Shown here in pieces: positions 1-64,000 of a DNA stretch of 64,000 bases (positions are counted from its first letter, which is position 1; every line of letters begins with the position of its first letter). The translations under genes were made by a program, and so were the position numbers. Source of the stretch: Liolophura sinensis. Its lineage: Eukaryota; Mollusca; Polyplacophora; Chitonida; Chitonidae. Under the pieces are notes generated by a model, which did not search any database, was not told where the DNA came from, and saw only the letters and a program-made list of their open reading frames with translations. The DNA is taken from positions 19,889,385-19,953,384 of the forward strand of contig NC_088295.1 of NCBI RefSeq assembly GCF_032854445.1, written 5' to 3'.

Positions 1-84
1 GAATAACTTTAGATTCTATTCTGATTTATATTAAATCCAAAGCCAATAACAGAAATGGCTGGATCTTGTTGACAGTTTGGATAC

Positions 85-3000
85 CTGAAACAAAATGTTT
101 GTGCCATGGTTAGCGCTGTGTCTACTCGTTTCTCATCCAGTAGCCTGTGTACAATAGAGATTATGGTCTTCTCCAAGTCATCAGCAACTGGTCCCTCAGT
201 GTTGCTATACCTGTACCAATACAGATATATGCAATGTTTGATGCAGGTAGTTTCTAAAGCAGGTATATAGTCGCACAAACTTCTAAGATTCAAGAAATGC
301 TTTCCTTGTAGTAATGTGAAGCAACTTGAACTTCACACTGGGTGACTGGGATGTATACACTGTAATTCTTCAAATTCATCCAACTCTTCAACCATACAAA
401 GCTAAGAAAGCTCTTGAAATTGTATTGGAATGGTTTGGCGCACTTTACAGGGCATGACAACCCCATTCATAATAATGAATAAATACTTACAAAAATTGCA
501 TTAATCAATGTGTTCTGATAATGGTGTGACAAAATCATCAGGTTATCAACATTAAAATACATGGAAACAACCAATCCCTTTCATGATATGCATATAGGCA
601 CCATGCAGCAGTCACCAAAAAAACACAGTTTTTTATAATTTGTACAGTAATACACATGAATTCTTTAAATGGACCATCCTTGTGGACACACTTACCACTG
701 CTGGACAATATCTACAATAACCATGGCACTGGATGGCTTGTGTAACAGACACTTCATCAAGACATCAAACTTTTCTCTCTCCAAATGAAAACCATCTTCC
801 GTTCTCTCGTAGATCTGTTTTAAGACTTCTAAAGCCGACAGACAACCTTGGTCTGGCGAGACACTAGACTCATCCCCAAGTGAAGCTATCATTATAGAAT
901 CTTTTACTGGAGCTTCAATCATGGTCCAAAGCTCCTGATGTATTTGCTTCAGTACTGTATTTGATTCTGAGACAGTTTCTTCTGATAACGCTAAGTTCTT
1001 TGCTCTGCCCCACAGCTCTGTGATAAATTCCTGTGCAGATGAAATTACGAACAGGCTCTTTCCAGATTTCAAGACATCAAATGCAATGTGGCAAAAATCT
1101 GCAAACACATGACATAACCATTAATTGACGTAATAGTTATAACTCAGTGACAATGGTTTTCAGCAAATTATGATAGTGCAGAAACGTCTAAGTCTCAAAT
1201 TGTGCTTTCCTTCTAGCAATGTGAAGAAACTTGAATTTATATTGGGTAACTAGGACACATATGCTGTAATTCTGCAACTTTCAAATTCTTCACAAGTATT
1301 CTAGGAGAATTATTATGTGTTGACTGATAAAATTGTTCTTTCTGTGAAATCCAGAAATTGGCCAACCCAACCAGTATTGTCTCCAAAATCAAATGAAAAA
1401 GGTGCATAAATCACAATGAAAGTAGCTCTTTCAAAAGTAAAAAGAATGAAGAATTAGAGTGAGCAACAAAGTATCGCAAAGTCAATAATCAACATATTTA
1501 TTTACTCACCGCTAGCTGTCTGAAGGAACCAGGTTAAACCTAATTTGTGGCTTAACAAGCCTCTTAGACAAACAAACACAGCACTTAGAACAGAAAGGTC
1601 TTGACACATCAGTTTGCTGCTCAGTCCTCCATAAAACCTGGTCACGAGTCCTGAACTTAGGAAGTGTTTAAAAGCCTCCTCATCTTCCCCGATAATCCCA
1701 AACAAGCGGACTGCAAATACCTTTACACTTTCATCCACTCCTTCTTGTGTCACATCTACATCATCAAGAAAGCGCTGGAATATGTCCATGTCTGAGAGGC
1801 AGCCATCATTACCTGAAACACATAATTATAACTTACATAATACAAAAGCCACAACTTACACCATGACTATATCCTACAGTTTGTAAATGTACAGATTTGC
1901 AAGAAATGCAAAAGTCTTTGTATGTCATTGCTGCACTTAAAAGGTTTTGGTACACGGATTAACAGAAGCTAATTAATATTGTAGATAAATCCTAAATCAT
2001 TTCAGTAATGTCCAGTAAAAAATATGTGTACTGTGGTATTAGCACTATACAATAAGAAGGTAAAGGGCTAGCAGCAGAAATCTGTGAAAACTGCCAGAAC
2101 CAGTAGCTGGTTTACCAAGAGCTTTGATAGGCTCTACAAAGGCTATTTTAATATTCTTTATTTATTAGTCAATTTAACTGAACTACTGTACCAGCCAGTT
2201 AACACAACCGTCATTTGAGGCAAAGTGAACTTAGTTGGGCGACTGAGCTAACACTTTGACCTAGCTCTGTAAGACTGTGATTACATATACTATCACAGCC
2301 CTGTCTTGTTCCATTAGCTTACTTGGAACACCTCTGTACTTCCCTTGCTGGCTTCAGTACACTACTGCTGGGCATCAAATAATTTGTCTGTCTGTAGTCA
2401 CAGTCATCTCAGCTATTAATTCCAGGTAGGTGTTCCCATGTGTCATCACTAGTAAATCCACAAAAGCATGAAACTATAGTGGAAACTGGATAAATTCCAA
2501 CTCCAATTGCCATGTTTGAATGCATACTCCTCACAGCCCATACACACTGGCCCTGACAGCACAGTTGGTAGAGCGTCCGTTTCGGAAGTGGTTGATCCAG
2601 TGTCAATCCTGGGTAGAGTCATACCTAAGACCTTAGAAGAGGAAGTCGTAACTTCCTCACTTGGCGTCCAGCATGAAGGGGATAGTGCAACGACTCGTTG
2701 ACCATATCAGTATAATGGCTCGGGCGGGGCGGCTTACTTACCTTCGTTAAGGCATCTCAGTGAAGCAGCACTAGATAAAAGAGCAGTGGAAATCCGTCCT
2801 GCAACAAGGAGGCACATTACATGCACTCTAGGAAATTCCTTAGAATGACTGAAAAATTGTTAAGTTCGACGTTAATTCTCAAGCACTCACTCACTCAGCC
2901 CATAAAAGCTACTGACACTTCTAGCATAAGTTATACTTGTGTATTCTTTTCTTCAATTTTGTTTATTTGAGAAATGTTTTTAGTGATCAGTGTTGATTAT

Positions 3001-3738
3001 TGTTCACTCTTGGTCATTACTGGTGAGACTGATCCTAAACAATTAGCCAGAATGCATGCCAAGGTCTAACTTGTCTAATAATGGCAGTGGTAACTGTATA
3101 CATGATTGCCCTCACTGTGAGGAGTATGCATTCAAACATGGCAGTTGGGGTTGGAATTTATCCAGTTTCCACTATAGTTTCTTGCTAATGTGGGTTTACT
3201 AGTGATGACACATGGGAACACCTACCTGGAGCTGATAACTGAAACGACTATGACTACGGACAGGCAAATTATTTGGTGCCCTGCAATAGTATACTAAAGC
3301 CAGCAAGGGAAGTACAGAGGTGTTCAGGGTTGGCTTATGGAACAAGACAGGGCTGTGATAGTACGTATACGTCCTACAGCCCCACAGAGCTAACTTTGAG
3401 CGTGCCCTTAAATTTGTCCACTTGAAAGTGGACAGTAAATCTAAATGCCTGAGCACTATTTTGCATTGACTAGAACAGAGAATATCCCGGCTGGTCTAAT
3501 CCAGAGACGTTTAAATGTAAAAGGTTTCATTTGCCGCAAGAATAATATTTTAGTCTGCTAGGTTGTGCTAGATGTTGTTTGTTGCTGTTGTCTTACTTTT
3601 CGTTTCAGGTGTGTTCTTACGGAGATTTCGTATGTTGTCTAACAGTTTCTGTAGACATGTGTCATCCAGGCGTAGAGACTTCTGATGAGACAGGTGAGAT
3701 AACACCTTCTCAAGTTTGTCCAGGTATGCTTTCTCCAT
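85..3738 (-). CDS. BRAT1: BRAT1 orthologue, 5' part (partial gene)
   Basis: Four coding exons read on the minus strand: 3738-3621 (start ATG), 1812-1510, 1098-696 and 210-85. The gene continues beyond the left edge. Each junction has AG/GT signals and the phases agree (1, 1, 2, 2), giving 316 complete codons. The N-terminus contains DDTCLQKLLD, very close to human BRAT1 DDTCLEKLLD. It is followed by a helical stretch with FAVRLFGII, GLTWFLQTAS and SLFVISSAQEF, which line up in order and spacing with the human N-terminal HEAT-like region. BRAT1 binds BRCA1/ATM and, in later work, INTS9/INTS11, in nucleus and cytoplasm. An insertion of about 80 residues relative to human (exon 1098-696, second half) is acidic and polar. 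The last donor (position 84/83, CAG|gtatcc) is less certain than the others, but a stop in the same frame at positions 9-11 means the exon must splice out before it. Confidence 0.82.
2261..3393. repeat. Foldback (large inverted-repeat) element with SINE in its loop
   Basis: The arm 2261-2536 and the arm 3115-3393 are inverted copies of each other. Landmarks on the left (AGCTCTGT, CTATCACAGCCCTGTCTTGTTCC, CCTCTGTACTTCCCTTGCTGGC, TCATCACTAGTAAA and the inner end TGCATACTCCTCACAG) recur in reverse complement on the right. The loop of about 580 bases holds a SINE (2543-2895). The element lies between BRAT1 coding exons 1 and 2, within the intron. There is no coding capacity. Confidence 0.75.
2543..2895 (+). 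mobile_element. tRNA-derived SINE, family A, copy 1
   Basis: Begins with a tRNA-like head containing the A-box-like CAGTTGGTAGAGCG and ends with CACTCACTCACT. It is about 80% identical by eye to the copy at 50696-51057 over its whole length, including the internal words GAGGAAGT, AGTGCAACGACT and CTAGATAAAAGAGC. It is bounded by a perfect 9-bp target-site duplication, CAGCCCATA, at 2534-2542 and 2896-2904, which fixes the ends. Confidence 0.85.
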
Positions 3739-6574
3739 CCTCAACCTGTCGCTACAAAACCTTCACATGTGAAATGTTACCCGCCGATATAAACATAGAA
3801 GAATCATGTCAAGGGAGGTAATCCGCGGGTATTCAACTTGGAATTGTTTTGGTCTTGTGGGACGGGGGTCAAGAGATGATTAGAGGGAGACTAGCAACTT
3901 TTTTTTATTACATGGCAAAAATCAGAATCCTGAAGGAAATCTGGTTGCGACAAATTTGATTTAATTTGTTATAAATCAAAAGTTATAACATCACTCTAGA
4001 CTCCCAACGGGACATGATCGCTCAACGTTTCCGGCGAGCACAATTCGGTACCAAGCTGTGTAAAAACACATCATTCTCTGCTGTTACTCTGTAATATTTG
4101 TGAACTACGCCTTTGCTTCATGGGCAGAAATATACAGAATCCGTGACGTATTGCTCCATATTACATTTACATTTATGAAATGATTAATCCTTATCGTATA
4201 TAATAAGCACAGTTAAATAGAACTATTAGTAGGTAGAAATAGTGACCTAACATGGTCGTCACTTTGACTGATGTCACAGTTATATTTGTAACCTGTTATT
4301 TTTTGAGTGTAAAGTGATACAGTAAGATGGCGCAGACCAGTCTGAAGAGCCTATTTAAACATAAGACAACAATTAAACGATATATATTAACCTTAGTTAT
4401 TTCAGAAAACGGGGTTGAGACAAACCTACACGTCCACCTTCTTTTTTTCTAATGTGCTTGTTATGTCTACAAAATTAATTTTTAATCTAGAATTCTTAAA
4501 AGACCATTGGAGGCGCCATGTTAGAGAAAACGGAAACACTATACATGTATTGTGTCACGTCACTCGTATATATTATACCGGCCCCGCGTGTATGGCTACA
4601 GGCAAATAAATGGGCTCGGTGACGTCAGCGGAAATAGAAGCCTTGAATTTAATTATTGGGTTATAGATATAACTCGCGCCTATTTGGTTAAAATTGATAA
4701 CATGGCGGCGCTTTCAATTTTCTTAATGTGCGCTATTTTATTTGCCATTCTGTGAAATGCGATATCTCGGTTATGGGTATGCAACATCACAAATGTAAAA
4801 AGTTATGCTTTTTAAACTTTATTTAGGACACTTTATCGCTACATACATACATTTGGTCTAGCGTGGTCTTTTCTTTTATTGTTGAGAAATATATCAAGCC
4901 CAGAACTTAGAGAGATACGCTGGATAAACTTCAAAATGATCTTTAAGCCTATAATTTATGATTTCGGACACAAAGTTTATGCTTCTCACACTGCACGAGG
5001 CGTATGCCACCTATAAAATTGCTCCTTCTTTGGTGGGTATATTTGTTTATTGTTTGAGATATGGTTCTGCTCATTCTGAAAATAATCGACAGATCGCGTA
5101 CTGGTATTAAATTGTATACGTGAACATGCATTGGTAAATACTTATATCACTAGAAGTAAATCAATATAGAAGGTTTAAACTATAGGGTGATCATTTGTGA
5201 TACACTTTCACTTGAGGGACCCTATAGGCTGACTCAGTTGTTTTAGGCGTCACCCTCGCTAGCTCTCAGCGGCACATCGAAACCCGCGCTTCAGACTAAT
5301 AAAAGCTTTTTGGTTTGTGGCAGCCGTTTCTTAAGAATTCTCTCCGCTTTCCTATTCCCGTCATTCTGAACACCTTCGTTCATTGGACATATTTTTGCGT
5401 AGAGAAACTGACTCTAGCTGTGAGTGACAGCTCCTGACACACTCGTAAAGCTACATGCACTTCTTTTTTCAGTTCTGTTTTACTCGTCTTGTCCTGTTAT
5501 ATGGCAAGCATGCGGCTTATAAAGCTCCAAAACATGCACTGAGCGACGTACAGGTCATAAAATCGAAAAAATTGTACCCGGCTCCAGTCACACTGAAATA
5601 TTTTTTTGCATTAGACACTGTACAGTTATGAAAATCACTGCACTACAAATGTAATCTCCTGAAAGATTCTTGAACATGCAGCTATGCACCAGTCAGTTAA
5701 ATAGATATATAACAAATGTAACTTTCAACCTTATACTTCCTCTACGCATAACATGTTAATGTTAATGATAGCTAGTGTACCACATGTACTCTCAACCAGG
5801 ATTCACGTATGATGTCGCTGTAGCCAAATGTTATGTAATACCATAGCCTATCCATTCTAATTCATGATAACGTTTCTTTAATGCAAGACGGCCTATGTCT
5901 TTACTGACACAAAAGTATGTTTCCAAAGAAAGAAGAAAAAAAAAGGAGTCACAAAGATTCAAACTCTTCCCCGTTATGAAACCTTTTCTCAGCATTGACT
6001 TCGTTAGTCCACAGTACTGTGGAGGATGATTGATAGATTATTGCAGAAATACAAAGTTTAAACTTTCTAAAATTCATTACATTATAAAGTTTATGTCTTA
6101 CATATGAAATAAACGTTAACCAAAAGGAAACTTTGGCAGCAAGTAGAAATACACACATGAAGGTTTCAGTAAAGATATTTTTCTGGTTAACGTTGATCTT
6201 CGTACTGTAAATTAAAAAGACAGTGTCTCGTCTGAACGAAAAATTGGGTTTTTGTCTAAGCAACCATCTCTTTGGCATGGCATTCTAACTTTCATGAGTG
6301 CTTCGACCAATTTTTATACTTCTGATTCGGAAATTTACGGGATTTTGAAATTTGGACTTTCTTATCGCACCTCTCTGGGGCCTACTCTCCGCCTTACGGT
6401 ACCAGGTCTTTTATAAAAGCTATAACCATGTACACGTTAATATATCACTGTCATGGATTTAGTTGTTTGGTTTTTTTGGGGTTTATTTTTTATTTATTTA
6501 TTTATTGTCTTTATTTTTACCATGATTAAACCCTGTGATGTGGTGGTATTGTTTCCCACATTTACGTCGCCTCA

Positions 6575-6663: not shown

Positions 6664-8767
6664 CCGTATTACTTTCTCCGTGTGATGATTTAATACGTGG
6701 TTACTCCATACCCGTGCATGAACACTATAATGGGAGGTTCACATACATGTATACATGTGTACGTTATGAAATACATGTATATGTGCGGTATTTATGAAGC
6801 TGTCAGTGTATGTTCTGGTCGTGGAACTGATCATCTTCTGCGTGAAGTCGTTTATGCGCTTTTGTTTGTTTTGTAAAGCATGTTTATCCTAGTAACCATA
6901 TGTGTCACAGTAGCTTTCAACATTTTATACAGCCTATGTAATTTATTAATCGTGCAGCTTTTCAACGAAACAACAGATTACACCCAGGTGGTGTTGGAAG
7001 TGCACTTACTTGAAATACAATATTTTTTTATTCAAATTGGCATACATGCCTAAGCTCCGTAGGTCTACTCAAGCAGAAGACACGTTCTGTGTAATAATTA
7101 TATATGTGTGTTTACTCCTTGCGTTCACCTCACCACCTGTGGATCTACTTCTGCTCTTAAGACTATAATGCATACATTAAAAATACCTGAGTCCATTCTT
7201 CTTTAACAAATTTATGAAATAATGAGATTATCAAAACCTTGAAAAGATGAAAATAACATACACAAGTAATTACATGTATGTATTCATATTGTGTATGGTG
7301 TAGCTCTGTATAGCTTATCTGTGCCAAAGCCAGCTGTACGTGACGTCACTCTTGAGAGCCTGTCCGACCCGTTAGGTTAATGATATGGCCCTTATTTTTG
7401 GCCGCTATAGCTGGGCTGCCGGTGTATACATGTAGACATACGGCTATCAACAGTCAGAACGAGATCGATCATGCCAATACGGCATATGAGGAGCGAGGAT
7501 TCGGGTCATGCCAGCATAGCTGACAGAATTGTCATTTCGGCTAGAAGTTAAGCCTTGTTATTGAGGCTGATTGAGGGAGAGATCGAGCTGGTGATGAGTG
7601 CTACCAACCTTAACTGAGCTGTGGTAAGTATGAACATGTGAGTGTATATCCAGCTCAGAGTTCCACGTCTGTGAGTTTACCGTGAGTCATGTATAAATAC
7701 ATAGGCTAGGTAAACTCTAACGTGCTCTCGAATTCACAGTGTTGGAGTTCTGTACGTACACAGTGCTACAGGGCCAGCCTTTCTCAGACTCCGGTTCAGG
7801 TCATCTAAAGATGTCCACGTTACTAAGGCTGGTTGAGGTAAGGCCTACCGAACTGTATTGATTAACATAAAACGAAACTGAACTCACAGACACGTGACTT
7901 CTGATAAAAAGACAACAATGCGATTTGATGAATTAATCTTAAACAATTGTTCCCTCGCCAATTTCATTTAGATTCGAAGGCTAGATATGTTCTTAATCAT
8001 ACGCTATATATATATTCTTTTGACATCAATCCAGTAAGTAGATTTTGAACGTTTCGTAAAATTAATTATGTATTGAACATAAAGCCCAAAGATGGAACAT
8101 AATTCAGGGTTTCCATTGACAAATTATGTATAAGGGATGTGTTTATTCACTGATAAACACCACTAATTCTGACCCTTGACTCGTTGTAGTTGGAACAGCT
8201 GTAAATGCTCAACAGAAAGAATTATATAGGGTTACATTACATACGCTTGTCTATGCTGGCCTCATAGACGGCTGTAGGCACATCGATTCCCACGGCTATA
8301 CATGTAGAGCATATGTAAAATAACTGATGTTATTTATACATGGCGATAAATTTATATCAAACTGTATAAGGATGTTTGAACGGCGTATTAAATCCATGTC
8401 AATAAAGGAATGTAATGGAGATACGAGATCAATTACATATATTTATATACGCAGCTATTGATTCCAGCAACCCTGATATATCTGTTAAAGCTATACAACT
8501 TGAGTTCACCAACTATAATAGATAAGATATATATGCATACAGGTATGTGAAATATGCCGTTGAGAGTGTACACACATATGGAGTGACTCATGCGGAAAGT
8601 GGCAGACACAAGATAGATCGGGTGTCTTTACACATTTTCTTATCATGGCTCTGGCTAGAATCGTATATATAATTTACTTTTCATTATATATGTATAGACA
8701 GAAGACGAACAAAACAATAGTGCCAGTGTCTGTATCAAATTCTTGAAATACGTGTCTATGTATGAAA

Positions 8768-9030
8768 TAGCGGTAGCCTCTGTGGCCAAGGTGGTTAGCA
8801 CGCCAGCGCGCCGCAATGCCTCAAGAGCCTGCCACCAACGCAGTCGCTGTGAGTTCAAGTCCATAACATGCTGGCTTCCTCTCCAGCCGTACGTAGGAAG
8901 GTCTGCCAGCAACCTGCGAGTGGTCGTGTGTTTCTCCCGATTTCCCTCCATCATAATGCTGGTCGCCCTCGTCTAAGTGTAGTATTCTTGAGTACGGCGT
9001 AAAACATCAATCAAATAATCAATAAATATA
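8768..9030 (+). mobile_element. tRNA-derived SINE, family B, full copy
   Basis: The head reads like a tRNA: A-box region TGGCCAAGGTGGTTAGC, then a B-box GAGTTCAAGTCC about 60 bases on. It is followed by a body with CCTCTCCAGCCGTACG and a tail TTCTTGAGTACGGCGTAAAACA ending in AATCAAATAATC repeats. Other copies or fragments are at 17083, 17519, 17570, 18898, 22505, 25048, 54347 and 61775. Confidence 0.85.
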
Positions 9031-9618: not shown

Positions 9619-9626
9619 TGACGTCA
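9619..9626. promoter_or_regulatory. Perfect CRE palindrome (TGACGTCA) before the pseudokinase start codon
   Basis: TGACGTCA, the full cAMP-response-element consensus bound by CREB/ATF, lies 26 bases upstream of the start ATG at 9652. Its position may place it in the leader rather than the promoter. Confidence 0.4.
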
Positions 9627-9651: not shown

Positions 9652-12600
9652 ATGGAAAACCCACCTGCGCCTGTACCAGACGATGTCTCTGTCAACTCAT
9701 CCGAAGGACATCAAGTTACCTGTGACAATACATTATCAGGTGTGTTGGTATCAAAACAACCTTGACCGGTTGGAAAGACATTAAACAGTGATTCCACGAC
9801 AGTTATATAAAAGCGTACACATATTTCCGAGTTTATTTTAGCTGCTACAGTTAACAAGGCTACAAATTTTATAAAGCTGAAGGGACGAAGTCATGAACAT
9901 GTCGAGTGTTACAGCTATTTATATAGCCTGTAATAAGCTCAAACCTTCGTGTTCATGCGTAGGCTTATGATCACCTCGGCATCTAATGTATGAATATATG
10001 CATGCTGTTTTGAGGTACATTGTGATTGGTATTCTTTGCGGCCTGATGTGTACTGGTTTAAATCGGTTCTTATGGATGGTGTGTAAATGTTAAAGGTGTT
10101 CCATATACACCCGTGGCAACCCTGGCAAATGGGCCTTTTGTGCCATGTTATATGAAAGCGCCAGATGTAAAGTAAAAGGCAGTCGGTGGAATGAGTAAGT
10201 AACCCTATGTAGTTAGTTCTCTAGTAAGGCTATCTCTTTTTTGTTTTTCATGTCCCTACAGGCGTGTTCTCCTCAGTCGGTCTGTGCAAAGTTTACAGAG
10301 CTCACCTTGGGACCCTCAGTCGTGTTACATTCTATCACAAAGGGCAAACCCATCTCAGGTAAGTCATGTTGCATTTTGAAACCTCCCAGGTGCAGACTTT
10401 GTCAAATTGTTAATTCTCAGCGGAATAAAATACCCAAGTACCTTGTCCCTTAACGTACATGTATAAAGTTTTATTAGCGTTGCTTTCATTGTGCAGATGA
10501 TACTATTATACTATTGCCATCATGACCAAAATAAATGACATACCACATAATTATCCTGATCCTTAGATTGTTTCTCTACCCTCAGAGATCACCCTGAACT
10601 GCAGCGACACGTGGAGTCATTATCTCTCCACCGTCACCCAAATGTCGCCACAGTCTTCAGTGTGGAAAGTCAACCCGGACAGACCAGCCTTCTTGTGGAA
10701 CACCCAGAGTGTGGAGAATTTGCCGCCTACGTGGTTAGTAGGTGGGCTAGGTTCTGGCGTAACAGTGACAGAAACTGTCTGAATTAAAGTGTATCTAAAA
10801 GTTGAATCAGACATTCATACACCAGTCGTCAACCAAAGATGACAAACAACAATGATAATGGCAAGATTTGGAATTCAATGCCAACTGCATGTTCGAATAT
10901 ATGTAAGATTTGTTTATTTATTTGATTGGTGTTTTACGAATATATGTAAGAATATATGTAAGAACATGAGAGTGTTGATGCTTAGACCACCCCTGAAGTT
11001 GAGTCAAGTTTGACACAGAAAAGGAAAAACACACACACACACAAAAAATGTATGGGGGTGGGGGGTGGTGGTGTTCTGCCAAGATATAAAATCTAACAAA
11101 CTTAAAATGAAAATTTTTGATGGAAAGGTGTGATCAGATACAATATAACTGTAAGTGCAGATGCAGATTCATGAAAGCTGCATTTATATGTGACAAACGC
11201 AATGCTTTCAGAAGGTTAACGTGGTCAAATGCCGTGTCAATCGTGGTGTTCGTATACTGGACTATTACTTTTCTGTGGGCCTGTCTTCCCGAAATGAAAG
11301 GAATATCTTGTAGCAATCAGTAGAATTATCGAAGTTACAGTAATCTTGCCCACTGGCTTAAAAATGATGATTGACACTGTAGCTATCCGTTGGCCGATTT
11401 GGTTTCAGAAAAGCCATGTTGTGACGTGGAGTCAAGTTGTTGGCATTACCAGGGACGTTCTCACGGGATTGACTTTCCTGGAGGCTTCAAATCGGGGCGT
11501 GTCACCTGACGTGCAGATCGATATCGGATTGGCTAATGTCTGGATGTTCTCCCGAGGTGTGGCCAAGGTCAGATATCACGTCACATGTACATCAGTCGTC
11601 AATGTGAATGTTACGCCTGTCGATATAGTTAAATTTATCCATGCATCTAGGAATTACACAAAGGCGAATGGATTTGTTCCCCAGTTATGTTGATTTATTT
11701 ATCTCAACAGAAAGGTTTCTATTGATTATTGATTCTATTGATTTCACATTTTGTCCTCTATTGGAGATATGATATGCATTGCATAGGAGGTATGAGCCAC
11801 GGGTAAATCAAGTCGGGGGCATTCTTTTTTTGCGTGGAAACACTGGTGGATTGTAGTTCCGGAGGAGATTGAATAAAGTGGTGCTCTTGTATGCTTAACT
11901 CATGCCATAACCATCTGCATCATAAGGTTGCATGCTGCGGACTGTCTTTGGTCGATCAGACATACAGTGGAACCAATGGACTGTCGAAGGAGGAGGAATT
12001 GCCTTCCCCAGCCTCGGACGTAACAGATGGGGACTATGTGGAGAATCCGTGTCACCGTGGTGATGTACACAGGTAGGTGTGCAGAGTTGCTTTTAGATTA
12101 ATTGTTATATAGTTGTAGATAGATTATAAACTCAAGTGTTTACGATTGCCCCACCCAAGTCCTAACATATTATCATAAATGCATGCGTCGAAACAGACAT
12201 CCGTATACCAACTAATCAAATAATGATAACTCGAACATCAGTTTCGTATATATACCTGCTGATATTATGCGGATTATTTTTTACCAAATGCTGCTGTTTC
12301 TTATGCATGCTACGAGCTTCAAGAATTATCGGAGAAATATCTTTTGTTTTAGTTTTGGGATGACACTTTTGGCCATGATGGAATGTCTACAAGGTAAGGA
12401 TTAAAATAAACCATACCCTTTAAATCAAGTTTTCTTTCGTTATAGTACATAATTGTTAAATCATGAAATAGCCCTGCGTTCTTGCTGAGATTTCTCTTAC
12501 AATGGATGAAGAATAATCCATTAGTGTTGTCCTGTGTGCGTCAGATTGTAAGATTGCACCGCGAGGATTTTTTTTAGAGATTTGCCATATCTGTTGCAGG

Positions 12601-15600
12601 TCACGTGACTGAGCCGTCTCAGACTGCCTATCAAAACATCCAGCACAGATTTGCCAACATTTCACCTGAATGCCCCAAAGAACTCATACACCTGGTGGAA
12701 ATCTGCATAAGAAGGGCATCGCATGACAAATTCACCTTTTCTGGTAAAGTTTGTTCCATGAGGACCATTCTTTCCTCATAAATTCCTACATCAGTATTCT
12801 GCCTTGGCATTTTACTGAGCTCGCCAACACAGGGAGTTTTGGCAAATCTGCAACATATGCTTATCTGATTTTCGTAGTTGATGGCTAGCAGTAGCAATTA
12901 TTCGTGCCAAATAAAATAACTCACACAGTATGAAGTTACAGTATACCTGTTGTATTTCACCTAGCCTTATAGACCTGTACCCCTTTATTGTTTGTTCCAG
13001 ATTTGTATTTAGTCTTCCAAAGTCTTTATCCTCTAAAGCTGTTCTCCGTATGGGATGTTAGCCTTCACAACGTTATTGTGCCCAAACACCAGAAATGGGT
13101 TGTGTTCAGGAGGCAGTTGTTTGAGGTGACGCCTAAGACGGCCGCTGTAGAACCCAGCTCTGATACGGACACGGAGGCAAGTGAGAACCTGATAGGTGAT
13201 CGGAACCATCAAGGCGTTATGGGTGAAGGCTCAACACACGTGAGCTACGTGTGCGACTGTGACATGAACTCTGCAGATCAGCCTTGTGGTGGAGACTTAA
13301 CGTTATGTGATGAACACTGTCAGGGTCACTCTACATCAATCTCGTGTAATGAAAATATTTGCCCCGAGGATGTATGCGACCAAGATAATCACAGCACTAT
13401 TGCTCAGAATAGAGACTGTGGAGAATTTAGCGAAGGTCATGATTCAGTATCCCTTGTATTTAAAGGAGAACACAACAAAATGTGCAAGATTGGGTTCCGC
13501 TGTGATGATTGTGTGATACATGAAAATGATATTTGTCTGTGCGAAAATATTGCCACCTCCGGGGCGTGTAGCTCTGTGGACTCCGGGGAGGATGCTATCA
13601 GCGAGTCTTGGCAGGAAGTTACTGAATCACAGTGTGACTCTAGTGACGAGGATAATGTTCGCATGTTTGGTGTGGGTTTATGTCCGTGTGAGGATAACCG
13701 GTGTTCCGCCCAAGATGGCACTACTTTCTGTGAGCTATCAGGATTGGAACCTATCACCAACAATAGTGATAATGACAATGGCATCTGTTTTTCTGACGAG
13801 GAAGATTTGATCCTTCAACCTAACGATGTTGATTACCGATCTGGAAATGAATCCACAGAAAAACAAAAATCTATTGATCATTCTTCGAAAGGCAGCGGAA
13901 ACTCTCTTTACTATGACAACATTGGTTTTTTTAGTGATAACGATACTGATCTCCAAACAGAAGGAATAGAAAATGTTCCCACTGAGCAAACAGACTTCTT
14001 TATGGACAATGCTCGCGTTCAGAACGACGGAAAAATTACCAAGACCTACCTCCCCAATGAAGAAATTCACTTTATTGACGATGATAGTGAAAATAATGAC
14101 ATAGTCGATACGAAAGGCTTATGTACCAATCCAACGGAGAATGGGAGTCAAAGCGAAGGTTATGCTGACAATTTTGTTACCAGAGATGAGTTATCTTCAT
14201 TCAGTGAGTATGATTGTGAGGGCTCTAGGAGTGACGGACATCTAAACCCACACGAACAGATAGGCTTCTTAAGTGATGATGACCATTGTTATCAGAACGG
14301 CGCAACTTGTAGAACGTTTAATGATGAACGCCTTAATGTTATTGGCTCTGATTGCTCTTGTGTTCACAGAACTGGAGGCATGAATTGTATGACCGATGAA
14401 GACCCACGTTACCGCTGTGATAATGAATTGTCGTTTCATAACGGAAGCAGTATAAGTGATGATGACTGCATAACTACTGATGATATTTCCGTTTTTAATG
14501 ATCAAGGCTTCTGTGATGAAGACAACAACGTTGCCAGTTCACAAGAAGCTGAAAATGGAAACGATGATATTCAAAGGGACGAGATAGGATTCCTCAGTGA
14601 TAATGATCTCTATATTCCGAAGGAGGAATGTTCCTTCAGAGGAACGATTAGCCCTCATGAAGAGATGAGTGCTTACCAAGACAATAGAAGTAACAGTGAT
14701 AAACATAACCATTTTTTAGAAATATGTTCTCCTGGTGATGAAGAAAATGGTAATGAAGATGACAGGCGTGGTGATCTTAGTAACTTCAGGTCAATGTGTT
14801 TGGTCAATACGTGTCAGTGTTTATTGCTGGATAATGTGTTAGACGTACCACACATGGCGGTAGAGACGGTTTCATTCACTGACTTCTCTGCATCTTTGGA
14901 AAGCAATGTCGTTAATATCAAGGGTGTAAAGCTTACCGTTGGTCGTAGAATTGGCTATATGTGTGAGCTGTCTGTAGCCCAGTACTGGTCAGACATTCGA
15001 CAAGATCTAACAATGCTTTTACAAGATTTCGAAGCGAAGCAACATGGCGTATCCAAAGCCTCGATCAAAAAGGATTTCAAGGGTTGTTTATTGCGGAAGC
15101 TAAGAGATATAGACTCGGAACATTTTGAGCACCAAGAGTTCCCAGTCCAGAGAGATGGCAATGCCAGAGCATTTCCGGTACCAAGTGAGATTCAGTCTGA
15201 TTCATCAAGACTTCGCAGCTGGCTCAATAATTGGGTTCCCTTTGACACTGATTTACCAGAATCCGGTTGTGCGTGGAAGGAGCTTGAGTATTCCGGTGAG
15301 TTTTCGGAAACCAATCAAGTGACAGAGTCTCCATGGTATGGAGAATGGAAGCCGTTCGATATGAGCATAGAGGGTGAAACCGCCTGGCCCAACCTGCCTG
15401 AAGACGTCATCGCTAATGACGTCCCCACGAAACAGCAGCTCATCGTGATCGAATCCCGTCAGAAGCATAAACACTGGCAGACGGAAGACCACATGGCCAA
15501 ACGACGGCTGAATCTAGGTCGCTATTTTAAAGAAAAGTACGGGTTTCAATCAAATATTATCGACGGGTACCTTGGTTTCGTTACTAGATTAAAAGAAAGT

Positions 15601-15654
15601 GACGAAATGTTGAAGTCATTAGTAGATATGGATTTAAGCTTTATCATGGTTTGA
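9652..15654 (+). CDS. Predicted pseudokinase with giant acidic C-terminal exon
   Basis: Eight exons: 9652-9739, 10262-10358, 10586-10733, 11409-11567, 11927-12072, 12353-12393, 12600-12743 and 13001-15654 (stop TGA). The total is 3477 bases, or 1158 residues, with every splice phase consistent. An in-frame stop at 9619-9621 supports the ATG at 9652. Residues ~29-274 follow the protein kinase fold: glycine-loop-like SGVFSS..KVYRA, RHVESL..RHPNV, hinge LLVEHPECGEF, RDVLTGLTFLE, catalytic-loop-like QIDIGLANV, GVAKVACCGLS in place of DFG, GDVHSFGMTLL (helix F), CPKELIHLVEICIR and a KFTF end. Key residues are replaced, so it is probably not a normal kinase. Residues 275-1158 come from one exon: first a Cys/Asp/Ser/Asn-rich acidic tract, then a compact C-terminal part rich in Trp. 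I do not recognise the family. The tyrosine-kinase-like layout suggests a signalling scaffold, but that is inference. Confidence 0.85.
10262..12743 (+). CDS. Kinase-fold exons 2-7 of the pseudokinase gene
   Basis: These six exons encode the kinase-like domain. The usual VAVK is VTFY, so the beta-3 Lys is missing. The alpha-C Glu position, nine residues before HPN, is His. HRD is QID, with the Asp and the later Asn of the loop kept but the His, Arg and basic residue lost. DFG is CCG, which removes the metal-binding Asp. Helix-F Asp (GDVHSFG) is kept, and the APE motif is not evident. The CCGLS codons straddle nothing: exon 4 ends GCCAAG and exon 5 begins GTTGCATGCTGC, so the CCG reading does not depend on an uncertain splice within the motif. 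Confidence 0.85.
13001..15654 (+). CDS. Exon 8: 884-residue acidic repeat region plus C-terminal domain
   Basis: A single 2654-base exon opened by the acceptor TTTGTTCCAG. Residues ~275-810 are strongly acidic and rich in Ser, Asn, Cys and Gly. They carry loose repeats of [EQN]IGF[LF]SD[ND]D near residues 580, 693 and 801, with weaker versions near 534 and 630. The SD[ND][DE] core fits the consensus for casein kinase 2. From ~residue 870 the composition changes to a more globular, less acidic sequence. It contains RRIGYMCELSVAQYW and two W-x-P-F-D blocks 38 residues apart (NWVPFD, EWKPFD), each followed by a Trp after AW. The protein ends in FIMV. No transmembrane segment or signal peptide is apparent. 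Confidence 0.85.
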
Positions 15655-16463
15655 ATTTGAAGTTAAGATCATGGTCACAAGGACGGATTGATTTAAACGC
15701 AGTCCTTTAGGTATGTCAACGCGCCATTCCCTGGCAGCAAAACCGTTAGGCAAGTCTTTAAAAAAATCACGTTTACCTGATAAAAAAATGTCATGTTTGA
15801 ACTTGGATACAAAGTCCTGCACAATTAATTTGCTCAGTTAACAACTTTTCGAGTTATTCTTGGAAATGTGTCGATACATTTTAAACACTTTATGTCATAA
15901 TCCATTTACATCCTCTGTTTATCTGGAATATTCCTGCGGTTAGCGTGTCTAGTTACCCAGTATATTGTCCTTGACCATTTTCGTGCCTGTTCCAAAAAGT
16001 CGTTCCAGGAAATCAAACTATGAGTGCTCTCTGTATGTACTACAGATATTTCGTAAATTTGTACATTAGTGTCAACCGAAGTTAGTTTAGGTCTTAAGTC
16101 TTCTCTGACAGTCCCATGAACTGATGTAAACCTGAGACTATTATATACACTAGTCCCGGTGTAAACGTGCGTGTAAGAAATCAAAAACATAATATACATG
16201 CATATAGAATTATATCTTTTATTACAAAATACTCTCTGATCTCATGTATGCTGCTATTGCGGTAAAGCTATATATATTTATAATCATGTGAAATACTTTT
16301 GATGTGCAAGTCTTTCTATAAGGATAACATTAAATTATGATTGTATATAGAAAGTATTTATTTATGTCTATATCCTCGTCATGCACTGCCTTTATTAAAA
16401 AGTTTAAATACATCTGTTTTTAGTTTATTTTATAAAACTTATTACAATAGATGTCCATAAGTG
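15655..16463. other. Convergent 3' regions of two genes
   Basis: The stop codons of the pseudokinase gene (plus) and the 281-residue gene (minus) are about 810 bases apart, and both 3' untranslated regions must fit here. TTTATTAAA at 16391-16399 reads AATAAA on the minus strand and ATTAAA on the plus strand. Another TTTATT lies at about 16358 and an ATTAAA at 16329. No coding signal was found. Confidence 0.55.
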
Positions 16464-21215: not shown

Positions 21216-22215
21216 ATTTCTCAACACGGTTTTATTGGCCATTTCACCAGTCCCAAACTAGTTCCCAACACCACCTCACTGGTCATTTCACCAGTCCCAG
21301 ATTAGTTCCCAACACGATTTCACCGGCCATTTCACCACTCCCAAACTAGTTCCCAACACCACCTCACTGGTCATTTCACCAGTCCCAAATTAGTTCCCAA
21401 CACGATCTCACTGGTCATTTCACAAGTCCCGAACTAGTTTCCAACACGATCTCACTGGTCATTTCACCACTCCCAAACTAGTTTCCAACACGATCTCACT
21501 GGTCATTTCACCAGTCCCGAACTAGTTCCCAACACGATCTCACTGGTCATTTCACAAGTCCCGAACTAGTTTCCAACACGATCTCACTGGTCATTTCACC
21601 ACTCCCAAATTAGTTCCCAACACGATCTCACTGGTCATTTCACAAGTCCCGAACTAGTTTCCAACACGATCTCACTGGTCATTTCACCAGTCCCGAACTA
21701 GTTCCCAACACGATCTCACTGGTCATTTCACCAGTCCCAAATTAGTTCCCAACACAATCTCATTGGTTATTTCACGAGTCCCGAACAAGTTCCCAACACG
21801 ATCTCATTGGACATTTGATCAGCCCCAAACTAGTTTCTAACACAATGTCATTGGTCATTTCACCAGTCCCAAAATAGTTCCCAACACGATCTCATTGGTC
21901 ATTTCACCAGCCCCGAAATGATTCCCAACACAACACAACAACTGGGTTATCTTCCGAGTCATTTCGCCAGCAGGCCTGAATCATTTCCCAACACGATCCC
22001 ACAGGTTATATTCCTAGTCAGTCAGGAATTGATTCACAAAATGCAATCTCACTGACCATCTCCCAGTCTCAAAGTGGTTTCGAAGTCGCCATCTCATTCA
22101 TTCGTGCACTGATGTTCTCTCCGGTCTAGAGTTGAAAACGCGATCTTATCAGTCTTCTTGTCACTTCTGAACTGTTTGTAACACGCGATTTCATTGGTCA
22201 GATCGCCAATCGCGA
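21216..22215. repeat. 44-bp satellite array (~22 units)
   Basis: The unit is approximately GGTCATTTCACCAGTCCC + AACTAGTTCCCAACACGATCTCACT. Copies between about 21230 and 21920 are very similar and alternate between two or three variants (CCAGTCCCAAA, CAAGTCCCGAA, CCACTCCCAAA). Toward 22215 they decay progressively. Most units carry ACTAGT. There is no coding capacity. Confidence 0.95.
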
Positions 22216-27615: not shown

Positions 27616-28189
27616 TTAATCCAAACGTTCCACTTTGGCTACAATCTTTCCTTCCCATAATGGTAACACTAAACTGTCTTCCCCAACTTCCTCAAACACA
27701 GCACCAGAGCCAAATTCATCACTGTTCTTCTTAAAATAATACCTGAAATAAGGAGAAAAAAACATCGATGTTAATCTGACGTACGTATGGAAGGGGCATA
27801 ACTTTGGGCATTATCAGAGTTATCTCCCATTATTAGTAATGGTAACCTGCAAAATCTGGCAGCCTTTAAATTATCATGTTAATATTGTGACATATTCCTT
27901 TTCTTGTGCACTGGGGATCAAATCTATTTCAAAACTAATTATCTAGATGACTTACCTATAATTGCCCTTTTTGCTGATGAGTTGTTTGAACTGGCCTAGT
28001 GTGATATCTGTGCCTGGTATGGTGTGGCGGTAAGGAATGGGGTCACCACAGAAGTAGATGCCGATGACAGTCTCCTCACACTGGGACTGAGACATTGAGG
28101 CTGGCTGGGACATGGACTGTGATGGGAGACTGGCCAGGGCAGAGCTGTTAGCTAGCACTGGCGTACTTGACTTTTTAGCAGACCTCTTC
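27616..28189 (-). CDS. AXIN1: Axin exons for the DIX domain and C-terminus
   Basis: Exons 28189-27956 and 27742-27616. The DIX domain reads IYFCGDPIPYRHTIPG, ITLGQFKQLISKKGNYR, then across the splice YYFKKNSDEFGSGAVFEEV and LPLWEGKIVAKVERLD, in step with the vertebrate Axin DIX to the last residues. DIX polymerises head to tail with itself and with Dishevelled. The intron sits between YR and YYF. Confidence 0.96.
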
Positions 28190-31100
28190 CTGTCAACACA
28201 AATACAACACAGGCTTAGTAATGTTTCCAGATCTAATGTACAGATTTTTCTCTGAGCTTTTAGCATTGCCATCCCCAATTAAGTACATAACTTGCACAGA
28301 ACAAATTTCAAAGTATACTAGGCTAGTACAAATCCCTGTAAATAATAATGATTTCACTTTCTTGTTCAGAACATTATACACAAGTATTTAAAGCACAGAG
28401 AGAAATCTAAACAAATTCAATGAAATGTTATCACATGTTTCGATCCACATATCCATTTCTTGCAGTCAAAGTTTATCTTTCTGATGACATCTTAATAAAA
28501 GGCAACTTTGTGAACATGCAATTCTACTCACTCTGAGGACGAAAGTGTGGGGAGTGTAACGTTTCCTGACTGAAGGTCAAGACCACTGGGCACAACCCTT
28601 GTAAATGGAGAACTTCGAATCTGCGAGGTGCTCTGAGATGGAGGGGGATTTCTCTTATCACGTGCCGAAACACCAGCGAAAGACCTGGGACAAAAACGGA
28701 AAATAGGTAAAACTGTAACAAGTGGAAACAGAGAAATGCATTGCAGTTCATCCATCTAATGAAATTAACTGACTATATTCTGACATGTTTTCTTAAATCT
28801 GTTCATTCTTTAAACATTGATATCATACAGAAGTTAACCATCAACAGAAGTAATCAGATCTCTTCATGATCTTATAATAAATGCTGAAATATTCTGTAAC
28901 ACTGAAGCTATTACTTTTCTGTCTAGCACTATTTGTGTATTTAGAATAAGGAGTTTCGATGCAACATCCACATCTTAGCAGACTTTGGACTTCTGATCTT
29001 AAGTTTGCAATTGCAAATGTATCTGGGCTCTTACTTTGATTTGACAGGCAGAGCCCTCGCCTCGCTTTCCAGGCGTCTCTTGGCCTCCTCTAACTGCGTC
29101 ATCGTGTTGGGCGGTGTCAGCAGTGGCATGGACGGATCCTGTATGATTGGCTGGTTCGGCTGAACTCCTCCGTGAGGTATTCGGGGTGGAACAGCCCCGC
29201 TCCTCTCTGCTGAGGCAGAACGATTGCTTGAGTTCAGGCTTTGCTGCTTCTTCGATGATCTGAGGAGCAAAAAGGTGACCAAGTTATTGAATTACACATT
29301 CAAGTTAAACCACAGAATAGCTAGAGGACCACACTGGAACGTGTGTGTGTGTTCCATTAGACAACAGGTATTTCTACACAAATCTTAAAAGTGAAATATG
29401 TTCAGAAATTCTAGTTTACGAAGATCAGAAAAGCATACATGGAAGGGTGCTTGTAACCCAAGTCAATGATAAACATCTTTAGACATTAACAAATGAAGAT
29501 CTCTGACTTACCCTCCTTTGTGAGGCTGAGGGGATGGGGATGATGAAGCTGCTTTATGCGACCACTTGTGAGAGGAGCTACGGTCAGAGTCAGCAAGGTT
29601 ACCACCGGGCGCTGTTACATTATCACTTGCCAGCATCCAACCCATAACCCTACAATAGTAGAAATAATATAATATTATAATTATAGATTATACTAGAAAT
29701 AGTATAATCATTACTAATCATAATTTTGGTCTGGGATGAAGTTTCCTTTGACGGGCAGTTCTTGATGAGACACTTATACATGTAGTGCTCCTTTTGATTT
29801 TTTAGCAATCCAGGTATAGTACACCAATACAGCGTTAAAGTGCTTGGCAACACCAACTACACCTGCCACTACAACTTCCCAAGACGATGTGCCTAATACT
29901 AGGTACATACAGTATAGTAATATCTCAGTATAGTCCACAAGATATAGAACTTCACAATCATTTCATACAAGAAAAAAAACTACCCAGTTCATAATGGGCA
30001 ACTCACATCCACTCTATAGAACTGCATGCTTAAAATTAAGTATGAAACTCAAATTATCACTGTAATCTTTTCTGTAACATTTGCAATGATAAACAATATG
30101 AGGGGACAAGATTTTGTGTCTTCAATGCTTTCAAAACCTTTTACATACAAGGTAAAACAATAGCCAAAGTATTGTTTTGTTTGAACAGATCATCAGAGAC
30201 CCCTGGCAAATTACCAGCAGCAGTACTGCCTATGTGTAGCTGTTAGAATCACCATTGTTCTGTACTGGACACAACAATTGTCTGCTACAGTGTCTCACTA
30301 GCAGTGTAGCATCCTAATGACAACAGCATACTGCAGCAGTGCCTAGTGTGGTCATAGCATTGAAAAACAGGCCACCAAGACATGCACTATGTGGAAAACA
30401 GCTTGAAGAGAAGTTAGTTATGGGTGTACATGTAATATTTGTGATGATTATACTCCTACTGAAATAAAACTGATAGATTTGAGGAGCTTACTTTTCGTAA
30501 TTGGGATCCGATGGGTTTGGAGTTGGTAATAAAGGTTCCTTTTCGTACACACCACTAATGCCACTGTCAAAAACACTACTAGCATCCGTTGAAGTTTTGC
30601 GACTATTTGAGCGCCTTCCTCCATCTTTCCTCCTGTCATTCAACTCCCCTGTTGGTCCTATACTGCCTGCACCACTACTTGATGTCTTTGTACCCTGTAA
30701 GAAGTCTCCGTGTGGCCGCCCAGTTTGATCCCCACGCCAATGTGCCATTGTCTTGTTCTGGGCTACCCATTCCAAGGTGGCACGGCCGTGGCCCTGAGTT
30801 CCGTGATGATGATGGTGGTGATGATGTATTGTATGCACACGTTTTTCATCACCAACACCGCTGTCCGACGACAACATGGAAATACAATTGTCCTTTTTGG
30901 CTTTGCGAGATTTTGTTAGTGTTCCTGGGAAGGTAGTATTTGCCGACGCCGGCATTTTGCGTAATGTCCTGTCAGGAGATTTTGATTTGGGTGAATGCCG
31001 ACCAGGTGACCGACTAGGTGTGTGATGGGATGAATTGTCCCAAATTCGGGAACAATGTTCTTCTAATATTGATTGTGCATTATCCTCTTCTATTGACTGT

Positions 31101-34100
31101 ATCAATAACAATGAATTGGATGCCTTCATGAATTCCTCCTTATCACCATCTTCAATCTGTAAACAAACATACAGATCATTTTTAATTTTCAGAACTAAAT
31201 CAGACAAGAAGCTCCATCAATCGTCCTGTATGAAGGTCAGATTTCAGATATCCTACATGCACTGCTTGACATGAGTCGTTAACTTACTGATGGGTCTGAG
31301 TGCAAGACTTATTGTCACAAATGGTGAAATCTGTAACATGTATTGACAATTACATCTTGCTACACTCTTGCTAAGGGGGCAATCTGTTAGTTCATAAACA
31401 TCAAGACAGACTATGGTGTCACCTACCTCACACATTCGAAGAGACTCAGCCATTTTTTCTTCCTTTTCCCTCTCTTTTAGCACAATATGTAACCTCTCAA
31501 TAAGAAGAGAGGCGAATTTCTGAGGATCAGTTTCAGCAATGTTTCTATCTTTTGGTGGACGGTCTGTCCTCTGCAAAAGAAGAGAGGAAAAACTTAAAAA
31601 AAAAACTTATATAAAACCACTTTCTGTTAACAGTTTCTCATCTCCATCTTTAGAATGACTTGAGCAGGTAACTTGACAGCTTTGTGTGACAATGGACGCC
31701 TTTGATGATAACAATTCCCAGACAGACTATGATAATTAGGTCAGATAAAAGACAAGCGCTTACAGGTATGACTAATGGGGCATCTTTCCCTTCCTTATTC
31801 TGTTGGGCTCGCCGGCTTACTGCTCGTCTTTGTTTCCAATGCTTTTTGTACGTAGGAAAGCCATCCCTGAAAGTACATAAAACACCATCAAATACAATGA
31901 AAACTTACCACCAATGGATTATTAAAGAGGCACTAAAGTTGTCAACAGTGAGCCAACCCTAACAAACCTTCTTCCACCCAATTTCATAAGGCTAAAAAAA
32001 ATATTTTGCAACTTTTACATCATTTTTTTGATCACCATTTGACAAAAATTTCCTACTGAAGTGGCCCACACAAATATTCAAGTCCAATGATTGTGTGCAT
32101 ATTGTTTCCTACAGAGGGGTTCAAAGGAATTTTCCTCTTCCTCCATTCTCATTTAATTATGCGAATATGTGTTTACACAGTACCAATCATGGATGGCCAC
32201 TATCACTAGAAAACATGCCACAAGCTTTCATTCATGCTGATTTAACTGCTTCATAAATCTTCAAAACAGGTTAACATGAGTTACCTGGTGACAATTCCCG
32301 ATCCATATTTTTATGAAAAAGCTTGTAGACCCATGAAGGTATAGCCTTCACCCTGTGGAGAACTTACACACTGCTGTCTGTGAGGGACATGGTATCATCT
32401 GTGAGAGCATCGCTGGACAGGCTCTGGATTTCGCTGTCCACAGCGGACACTGTGGCGTAGGAGGTGTAGTAGGGCTGAGACTGTGGCTGGCGAAAACTTG
32501 TGTACGGGTTATACCTGCAGCGAAGAAACAAGAATGATTATAATTTTGCTATTCACGTTAAATGGATGAAAATAATCATTTCAAAGCACATGATGTTTGT
32601 GTGGAATAACATATAAAGTCAAACATAACAAAAATGTAAAACTAATTCCCTGTATACCAGTGTGTTTTCTCAAACACTGCTCAATGAGTGACTAAGATGT
32701 TTACAGCAAATCTGGAAGTTTTTCTGGACCAAAGGCAAAGCTCTGAGCAAATAATATCTCCCTGGGCTTTATACCAGTTTACAGCACACGTTTTATCCCA
32801 AGGACCATGTTATATCCACAGACAATTCAGTTTATCTATACCCTGTTTGCTTGTCTTTTGACTTGTATCACTGTCAATGTGACAAAGCACCGATGCACAA
32901 GATAACAAGAAATATCACAAGATGTTCAGTCCTAGAGTAGACACTCCAGTATTATATAAATATGTTTGTTTTTGTGAGTGGGAAGCCCCTTGATGTGGTT
33001 ACATATCTGGACTGATGTGGTTACATATTTGGACTGATGAAGTATGTGTGTGTTGGGTGAGGAGGTGAGATAGGGCCAGTGAATAAAGTTTAGCTTCAGA
33101 TACACTCACATTACGGTGTCACGACCAAACAGAAGCCCTGACGAGGGCTCACATATCAGTTTGTGTACTGATTAAACCGCACTTTTCATGATCGTGTTAA
33201 GCAGAGTTATTTTTTTCCAGGTTTTACGGACATGACAGAGAGAACAAGGTTTTCAATCGGAGTGTTTGTTAAGAGTGCTCTAATCTAGCTGGCAGGTACA
33301 GGTTGAGCAGGTTATCAACATCAAAGGAGACCAGGTGTATAATTATACTGCGGAATGAAGCCTGACCAGCATTGACAACAGGCTCAATTGACTAAAGGTG
33401 TTTACATTGCTATATGTTGAGTGTACATGTCACAGCCTCCTCCTCAGGTAACCAAAGCAGAGGAGACTGTTACACTTAAACATAACTGACATCATCCCTA
33501 CAACATCTCTACCTATTTGAAGTGACAGCTTTATCATCAATGGCTATCTTTAAAGTGTTTCCCTTTTACTTTAAACAACCCGCTATGAGTGGTTCCGAAC
33601 AGTGGTGTCCTTATATCCTAATAAAACAGCTCTTATCTAAGGCCCATGTATAAGTTTATTGGATCATTGGCTCAGACACGTATATTTTCTGCTTTCGTAG
33701 AACACTTTTAAACAGTTTTTTGTCTTTTGTGTAATAAAGCACTAGTGTCCTAAATGATCTTTCCTCCCTCAAAGACTTTCTCAGACAATAATATAAGAAC
33801 TTCATATTCTACCATCTGTAAAAAGTCTTTGTCTGTGACAATAGGTACACTTGGTTTATTTAATGGACTATTACTCATTGCATTAAAATAAGTTTGAGAA
33901 GAAATAAAATAAATCCTGAGCAACCCCTCAAACACCTGGCAATAGTTGTCTCAGCTTGATGAATATCTGCCACTAGATCAATCCTTAATGGCGCAGTGCT
34001 TCTTTACCTGGGAGAAGAAAATGCCCTCAACCCTGATTAATAGAGGAATAAGATGCAAATTGGTTGTGTGGGACTAGCAGATTCCCCCCCTTAACAATGA

Positions 34101-62400: not shown

Positions 62401-64000
62401 ATGACAAAAATTGTAGCAAAGATTGAAATCTTTGCAGGTCATCTTTAATACCTCTTTTTGGGAAATCAGGATTGCTGAATTGACAAATGGATTAATCTTC
62501 CCACCTGAACAAGTCAGTCTCAATCTTTGCATGTCACACATTAAGTGTATTTGTACACAGACACTGAAGCAAGATAGTGTGTTGCGATGGGTTTTTATAC
62601 ACTTTGGTACACTTTGACTTTAGCAGTCATCTTAACATAGTACCTGTTAGTCAACTCACCTGTCTTTATCAAACATGCCAATCATTAGCCTGCATGTTTC
62701 AGAATTGAACTGTGACCAGTTACTGTTGACAAGTGCCCTCTGAAGTTCATCAGCAGAAATCCTTCCAGATCGATCTTGGTCCACTGACTGATGGAAAAGA
62801 ATACAACAAAGGCCAAGTGGATAAAAATTTGTCATTGAAATTGCAAGTCTTAAACTATTACTTTTCTGTTTGTATTATTTGTGTACATATTTTCTGCTTC
62901 TATAAACACACTAGTAAGCCCCCCCGCCCTCCTTTGCCCTTTGCCAGCACTGCCTCATGGGTCACCCAGGGGAGATTATCAGCCAGTTTGTTATTCATCA
63001 AGGGGTTTGTCCAGTAGCTGTGGAGCTTCTTCTCTGGGATCTGCGTGGTTTTTTCTTTCCCTTAACCTAACGATCTTTGAATGGTACTGTACTAGGTTAA
63101 CTGCCCTGACATTTTAGTATGGGACCGCACACATGAACAAGGGTATAAAAGCATCATAAAATATACCACAAAGAATTAATAACACATCTGCCAGGACGCT
63201 ACAACATAGTGTGCTCTACCTAACAATGGGAAGACTACTGGAATGAAAGCATCTACAAAAATAATGATAATTACTGTCTCAACAGATAAACGGATGGCTA
63301 TAGGATTACTTCAGTATCTCAGCCAGTCTTACCTGGAACCAGGACCAGAGTTCAGGGTTTATCCCTGGGGGCGGTCCTGCTGGTGGTGCAGAGTAGGCCG
63401 GGACTGGGGGACGTCCCCCATAGCCCTGCGCTCCATACGGATTCTGCTGAGGGGGAGGGCCATACCCATACTGCTGTTGTGCCCCTCCCCCATACTGCTG
63501 TCCATAGGCCTGTGCTGGGGGCCCACCATAGCCTCTGTTAGTGCCGTATGCTCCTTGTCCATAACCACCCTGCCACATACAGAAAACCAAAATATATTTC
63601 ACTGAAAACACAGAGCTCGAGAAGATTTCATATTAAACGTGCACAATTATACAAAACCTTTAGCTTTTAGACCAAGGTTCTATACTTGTGTAGTCTATGC
63701 CACTTCTGATATTGAACCACTGGTTGTGACATACCATAGAGCTAGTATCAAGCCTAAATATGTGATTTATGGAAAATTGAAATTCAGATGCTGAGACCTG
63801 GGGATGAGGGTCATCATTAGCATCTCAAGACACTCCATGGTCTTTCATTATCTTTCTAAGCAACAGGCTATCATGAACAAGTGCCTCCCTGACAGATGAT
63901 TAAAATTAGTAAAGTTGATGTTTTGGTCAGAGTATGTGGCTACCTGCTCAATTTTTTTAATAAAGTAGCAGACAGCTGGTACCCACCTTCTGATGAATCC
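59484..64000 (-). CDS. PEF1: Peflin (penta-EF-hand protein), 3' part of gene
   Basis: Exons on the minus strand: possibly 64000-63987, then 63569-63333, 62787-62660, 62184-62110, 61669-61595, 61268-61100 and 59519-59484 (TAG). All phases agree, giving 239 visible residues plus the missing N-terminus. The first full exon is the Gly/Tyr/Pro/Gln-rich domain typical of peflin, ending [12 protein letters not shown] (human NVDPEAYSWFQ). Five EF-hands follow: loops [24 protein letters not shown] (made across a splice) and [12 protein letters not shown] look calcium-competent, while the fourth ([12 protein letters not shown]) and fifth ([12 protein letters not shown]) are degenerate, as in the family. 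The C-terminus is [11 protein letters not shown]. Peflin pairs with ALG-2 (PDCD6) and acts as an adaptor in ER-to-Golgi traffic and KLHL12 ubiquitination. The short last exon is 1.6 kb downstream; it was found by its phase-0 acceptor and the expected FxxM ending. Confidence 0.93.
59631..60775. repeat. 24-bp minisatellite in the last peflin intron, two blocks
   Basis: Blocks at 59631-60195 and 60546-60775, same orientation, consensus about TCTTTCTGGATACTGAGGYACATG. The second block is cleaner, for example three consecutive units from about 60700. Because the unit is 24 bases, minus-strand frames stay open (187 codons over 59567-60130) and read as an eight-residue repeat such as YSQRHVPQ or IQKDICLN. 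There are no exon signals linking it to peflin. Confidence 0.85.
61775..61955 (-). mobile_element. Family-B SINE, partial, in a peflin intron
   Basis: TTTATCTATTTGACCGGTGTTTAACCTCTTACTCAAGAATATTTAAC, then AGCTAGCATTATGGTGGGAGGATACCGGGCACAGC and a decayed head with GTCTTGAACTCACAAC (reverse B-box). It lies between exons 61669 and 62110. Confidence 0.75.

Follow-up and report, generated by a model that had tools for sequence, protein, structure and literature searches.

The locus and the gene model

The window analysed in this study is a stretch of 64,000 bases of a chiton genome (C1:19889385-19953384), taken from an assembly published under the name Liolophura japonica (PMC11068029), which has since been corrected to L. 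sinensis (PMC12441733); our whole-genome searches covered 609.46 Mb in 632 contigs. On the plus strand of the window, eight exons join into one open frame of 1158 codons that starts with an ATG at 9652, ends with a TGA at 15652-15654 and encodes a kinase-like N-terminus followed by a long acidic tail (Table 1). Other genes noted in the window lie on the minus strand. One is an Axin gene, with RGS and tankyrase-binding parts as well as a DIX domain. Another is represented by exons of a penta-EF-hand protein, whose EF-hand part matches PDCD6/ALG-2 (E = 2.6e-11) and is adjoined by a Gly/Pro/Tyr-rich frame, an arrangement that we take to be that of peflin. Finally, several serial open frames resemble the exons of one gene, perhaps a BRAT1-like one; two of these frames gave no match in Pfam or the PDB.

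The seven splice junctions proposed in the initial annotation held throughout: each intron of the gene (206-675 bases) has a GT donor and an AG acceptor, the phases are compatible, and a single open frame results. Exon 8 contributes 883 codons and lies within an 893-codon stop-to-stop ORF, the sole long open frame of the gene region, which agrees with the earlier remark that the kinase part is easily missed when genes are sought by ORF length. The gene thereby illustrates how a kinase part carried on seven small exons would be overlooked if only the long last exon were annotated. In the short exons 2 and 6, codon usage gave no support for the frame assigned to them. This looks like an ordinary nuclear protein-coding gene of the chiton, a mollusc, and one that is presumably expressed.

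Table 1. Position of the features discussed, numbered from the first base of the window
Feature	Position	Strand	Content	Basis
Exon 1	9652..9739	+	Start codon, residues 1-29	GT donor; in-frame stop at 9619, 11 codons 5' of the ATG
Exon 2	10262..10358	+	Glycine-loop and beta3 region, residues 30-61	AG/GT, phases; kinase profile alignment
Exon 3	10586..10733	+	alphaC to hinge, residues 62-111	Splice sites, Pfam match, profile alignment
Exon 4	11409..11567	+	alphaE and catalytic loop (QID, Asp149, Asn154), residues 112-164	
Exon 5	11927..12072	+	CCG replacing DFG, activation segment, residues 165-212	Splice sites, profile alignment
Exon 6	12353..12393	+	Remainder of DVHSFG, alphaF region, residues 213-226	Splice sites, profile alignment
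Exon 7	12600..12743	+	C-lobe, residues 227-274	Splice sites, profile alignment, removal test
Exon 8	13001..15654	+	Kinase-domain end, acidic Cys/Asp/Ser-rich region, Trp-rich C-terminus, stop codon	
Acidic stretch with four IGF[F/L]SDxD-type repeats	13915..14619	+	Residues 580-809	3 exact copies and 1 divergent
Duplicated WxxxWxPFD...AW unit	15220..15387	+	Residues 1015-1070	Local alignment
Two ATTAAA polyadenylation-type signals	16329..16399	+	Starts at 16329 and 16394	Consensus match only
Serial open frames	9-3760	-		
Inverted repeat	2288-2536 and 3115-3363		249-base arms, 578 bases between	90% complementary
SINE-like dispersed repeat	8765-9030			tRNA-like A- and B-box sequences
Tandem array	21218-21931		44-base unit, about 16 copies	
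Axin gene	27952-39104	-	RGS and tankyrase-binding at 38130-39104, DIX at 27952-28278	
Tandem arrays	59667-60773		24-base-type units	
Penta-EF-hand exons and adjoining frame	62656-63632	-		EF-hand match to PDCD6/ALG-2

Kinase homology and replaced catalytic residues

The profile search suggested in the initial annotation, run on the spliced protein, matched PF07714 (PK_Tyr_Ser-Thr) over residues 57-277 with an E-value of 3.9e-10 and a score of 39.9 bits, against a curated cut-off of 23.1; PF00069 was weaker, at 20.5 bits and below its cut-off of 31.7. The closest solved sequences to the N-terminus in the PDB are those of Roco4 (5.8e-8), Lck, RIPK1 and ZAK/MLT, and by these nearest neighbours it belongs in the TKL/TK branch of protein kinases. 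A second profile, assembled from 20 PF07714-detected kinase stretches in the chiton's own genome, aligned to residues 30-275 (glycine loop through C-lobe end) and gave 35.5 bits for the first 300 residues, where 200 shuffles reached 1.4 at most. In this kinase test, none of the exon ORFs was significant alone without splicing. Omission of any one of exons 1-7 left a score of at most 23.3 bits, a drop partly due to the broken frame in the case of exons 1, 2, 3, 5 and 6; exons 4 and 7 can be removed in frame, and because this costs 12 and 13 bits, respectively, we regard both as part of the gene. The splice sites had been picked by a reader seeking a kinase, so that some selection is built into the match, but this is an unlikely source of an E-value near 1e-10. 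The earlier description of the gene as unrecognised therefore has to be narrowed: the N-terminus is recognisable as a TKL/TK-like member of the kinase superfamily, and on these searches only the tail, whose 883 codons found no match in Pfam or NCBIfam, is unfamiliar.

Aligned to the own-genome profile, the N-lobe has Thr52 at the position of the beta3 (VAIK) Lys (Val51 in an alignment with RIPK1) and His70 at that of the alphaC Glu, and the glycine loop apparently lacks two of its three glycines, the alignment here being of moderate quality and the exact replacement uncertain. In the same alignment, HRD reads QID with its Asp retained (Asp149), the catalytic-loop Asn is kept (Asn154), DFG is replaced by CCG at residues 167-169, and the alphaF Asp is present as Asp210 in DVHSFG. 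If a pseudokinase is a kinase domain that has lost at least one of the VAIK Lys, the HRD Asp and the DFG Asp, then the first and the last of these are gone here and the second is present; the complete VAIK/HRD/DFG set of an active kinase is represented by Thr52/Val51, QID and CCG. Because the ATP-anchoring Lys and the metal-binding Asp are both lost, ordinary catalysis is unlikely, and these replacements point to a kinase domain that is probably without phosphotransfer activity. The profile matches, together with the loss of catalytic motifs, support the proposal of a spliced gene that codes for a pseudokinase and ends in a long acidic exon.

The retention of Asp149 and Asn154 leaves room for residual or non-canonical activity, and the protein could be an active kinase in which another residue near the beta3 position, such as Lys56 or Arg50, has taken over the role of the Lys. 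We consider this unlikely, since it would also have to accommodate the change of DFG to CCG, the His in place of the alphaC Glu and the apparent loss of the loop glycines.

Compared with the TKL/TK kinases of PF07714, the chiton protein keeps the domain order from the glycine loop to alphaI, the catalytic-loop Asp and Asn and the alphaF Asp, and differs in its replaced beta3 Lys, alphaC Glu and DFG Asp. Neither the death domain that accompanies the kinase in RIPK1 nor the ROC-COR of Roco/LRRK proteins was found in it with Pfam at E<=10. The resemblance to Tribbles, VRK3, titin kinase and KSR3 lies in kinase homology with degraded catalytic motifs and in an expected action by binding, whereas the accessory regions are different; our general searches showed no sequence-level link to any one of these families. 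In the receptor kinases BMPR2 and LMTK, a long cytoplasmic tail is encoded by one large last exon. The chiton gene is built alike, with small exons for the kinase part and a very large one for the tail, but, unlike these receptors, it shows no transmembrane or extracellular part, and its start codon stands just before the kinase domain. TEX14 is also a long, mostly non-catalytic protein with a pseudokinase inside it; there, ankyrin repeats precede the pseudokinase, whereas the chiton protein has no ankyrin match in Pfam at E<=10.

The gene appears to be single-copy in the chiton genome, as a paralogue search of the whole genome, queried with the N-terminal 320 and the C-terminal 292 residues, returned the gene itself only, all other matches having E-values above 1. 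The best match outside the gene (C1:81852678-81852935; E = 2.9, not significant) is a kinase exon with a transmembrane stretch, which from its sequence we take to be an activin-receptor-II-like kinase. We also weighed descent from an activin-receptor-II or BMPR2-type receptor and set it aside, this match giving it no significant support. No relative was found in viral contigs scanned with the C-terminus. In the literature, a paper on the oyster kinome leaves pseudokinases unmentioned, and our search found no paper containing both "chiton" and "pseudokinase".

The acidic tail and its repeated motifs

Beyond the kinase domain, Pfam returned nothing at E<=10. Between residues 319 and 870 the net charge is -93 (22% acidic, 6% basic residues), and FoldIndex is below zero from about residue 300 to 900, which suggests that residues ~300-900 are disordered. 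The Cys/Asp/Ser-rich region and the Trp-rich C-terminus that had been described for this protein are both evident, with 21 Cys within residues 359-537 and 7 Trp within residues 1015-1100. The C-terminal part of the tail had no match in a PDB sequence search, and single-sequence structure predictions were too poor for use, both for the C-terminal 298 residues (mean pLDDT 33.7) and for the last 84 (mean pLDDT 55.4).

CK2-type [ST]xx[DE] sites are in excess in residues 319-870, where 33 were counted and shuffles gave 20.2 +/- 3.6 (33 was reached by 5 of 5000). Two further motifs, which the initial annotation does not mention, are repeated, and the shuffle figures for such tail motifs are optimistic, as these were picked after viewing the sequence: I[G/H]F[F/L/I][S/D]D occurs four times in the acidic region and in none of 5000 shuffles, and the two copies of a WxxxWxPFD...AW unit near the C-terminus, WLNNWVPFDTDLPESGCAW and WYGEWKPFDMSIEGETAW, align with a score of 48, which none of 2000 shuffles attained. 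The exact copies of the first motif read DNIGFFSDND, DEIGFLSDND and EQIGFLSDDD, and the divergent one EEIHFIDDDS. The Ser of the Ser-bearing repeats is itself a CK2-type site. Its counterpart in the divergent repeat is Asp; perhaps, then, an acidic group at this position is what counts. A reading of these repeats as SUMO-interacting motifs was dropped after a regular-expression test.

A candidate scaffold and its alternatives

Based on the intact frame, the kinase homology, the lost motifs, the charge, the CK2-type sites, the repeats, the Trp unit and FoldIndex, we favour, as a probable though far from certain reading, a cytosolic and phospho-regulated pseudokinase scaffold made of a dead kinase, an acidic arm and a C-terminal docking site. 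The TKL-like pseudokinase domain at the N-terminus would serve as a protein-docking module, probably without transferring phosphate, and residues of about 320-870 would form a mostly disordered acidic arm. Phosphorylation of this arm, at the IGF[F/L]SDxD repeats and the excess CK2-type sites, would switch the binding of partners, and the duplicated WxxxWxPFD unit would offer a second docking site at the C-terminal end. It is possible, but a good deal more doubtful, that the protein stands for a lineage-restricted pseudokinase family of chitons or molluscs, a CK2-switched scaffold unlike the named pseudokinases, in which the IGF[F/L]SDxD and WxxxWxPFD...AW motifs would be previously unreported. 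Should the gene prove to be expressed and conserved in chitons, the pseudokinases would gain a member whose tail has an unfamiliar architecture and carries two repeat motifs; if it is merely another divergent scaffold in one genus, its interest would be modest.

Two specific forms of a scaffold deserve mention. In the first, the protein would be an endocytic adaptor, with WxxF-acidic motifs for the alpha ear of AP-2 and the pseudokinase part for a cargo or a regulator. The two WxxF[DE] motifs of the protein, WVPFD and WKPFD (0.07 expected in shuffles, for motifs selected after inspection), resemble, in consensus only, WXXF and WVXF, which are given for SJ170 and stonin2 as ligand motifs of AP-2 alpha (PMC8806629). 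Against this, regular expressions for FxDxF, DPF and NPF found nothing in the protein, and clathrin-box-like matches are at chance level; we see such an adaptor as improbable. DPW, GAE and LIR motifs are absent too, and YxxPhi and dileucine matches are as frequent as chance predicts. In the second form, the protein would be a tether at ER contacts, where the four acidic repeats would act as VAP-binding FFAT or phospho-FFAT motifs, with phospho-Ser or Asp at position 4. The FFAT core consensus is E1-F2-F3-D4-A5-x6-E7 with an acidic flank, and in phospho-FFAT motifs position 4 is a Ser or Thr that is phosphorylated (PMC7610837). A core xF[F/L/I][S/D]Dx[D/S] is present at four places, with F2, S/D4 and a mostly acidic position 7 that fit; positions 1 and 5, however, are Gly/His and Asp, instead of the Glu and Ala of canonical EFFDAxE, and the enrichment of this loose pattern, whose resemblance to FFAT was noticed after the fact, is moderate (4 against 0.87 in shuffles, p = 0.011). 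We give the tether little credence.

The exons were joined from genomic DNA, and exon 8 is open for 893 codons by itself; the model could have fused two genes, a short pseudokinase gene and an acidic-protein gene starting inside exon 8. This would be a surprising outcome, considering that exon 8 is in phase, that its first residues resemble the last kinase helix (FTFS/DLYLVFQSL across the junction), that the Pfam match extends beyond the exon 7/8 junction to residue 277, and that the first in-frame ATG of exon 8 does not come before residue 348. As for a decaying gene or pseudogene, which the degenerate kinase motifs might bring to mind, 1158 codons without a stop or a frameshift and splice sites that are all intact make it highly improbable.

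The window also contains repeats of several kinds. The SINE-like repeat upstream of exon 1 is a dispersed element, with 40 scored copies that are about 80-84% identical and a first look across the genome giving 6860 candidates, and the inverted repeat looks like a foldback or MITE-type element. Besides the 44-base tandem array, the arrays of 24-base-type units give a 208-codon open frame on the minus strand, which is probably a repeat and no gene.
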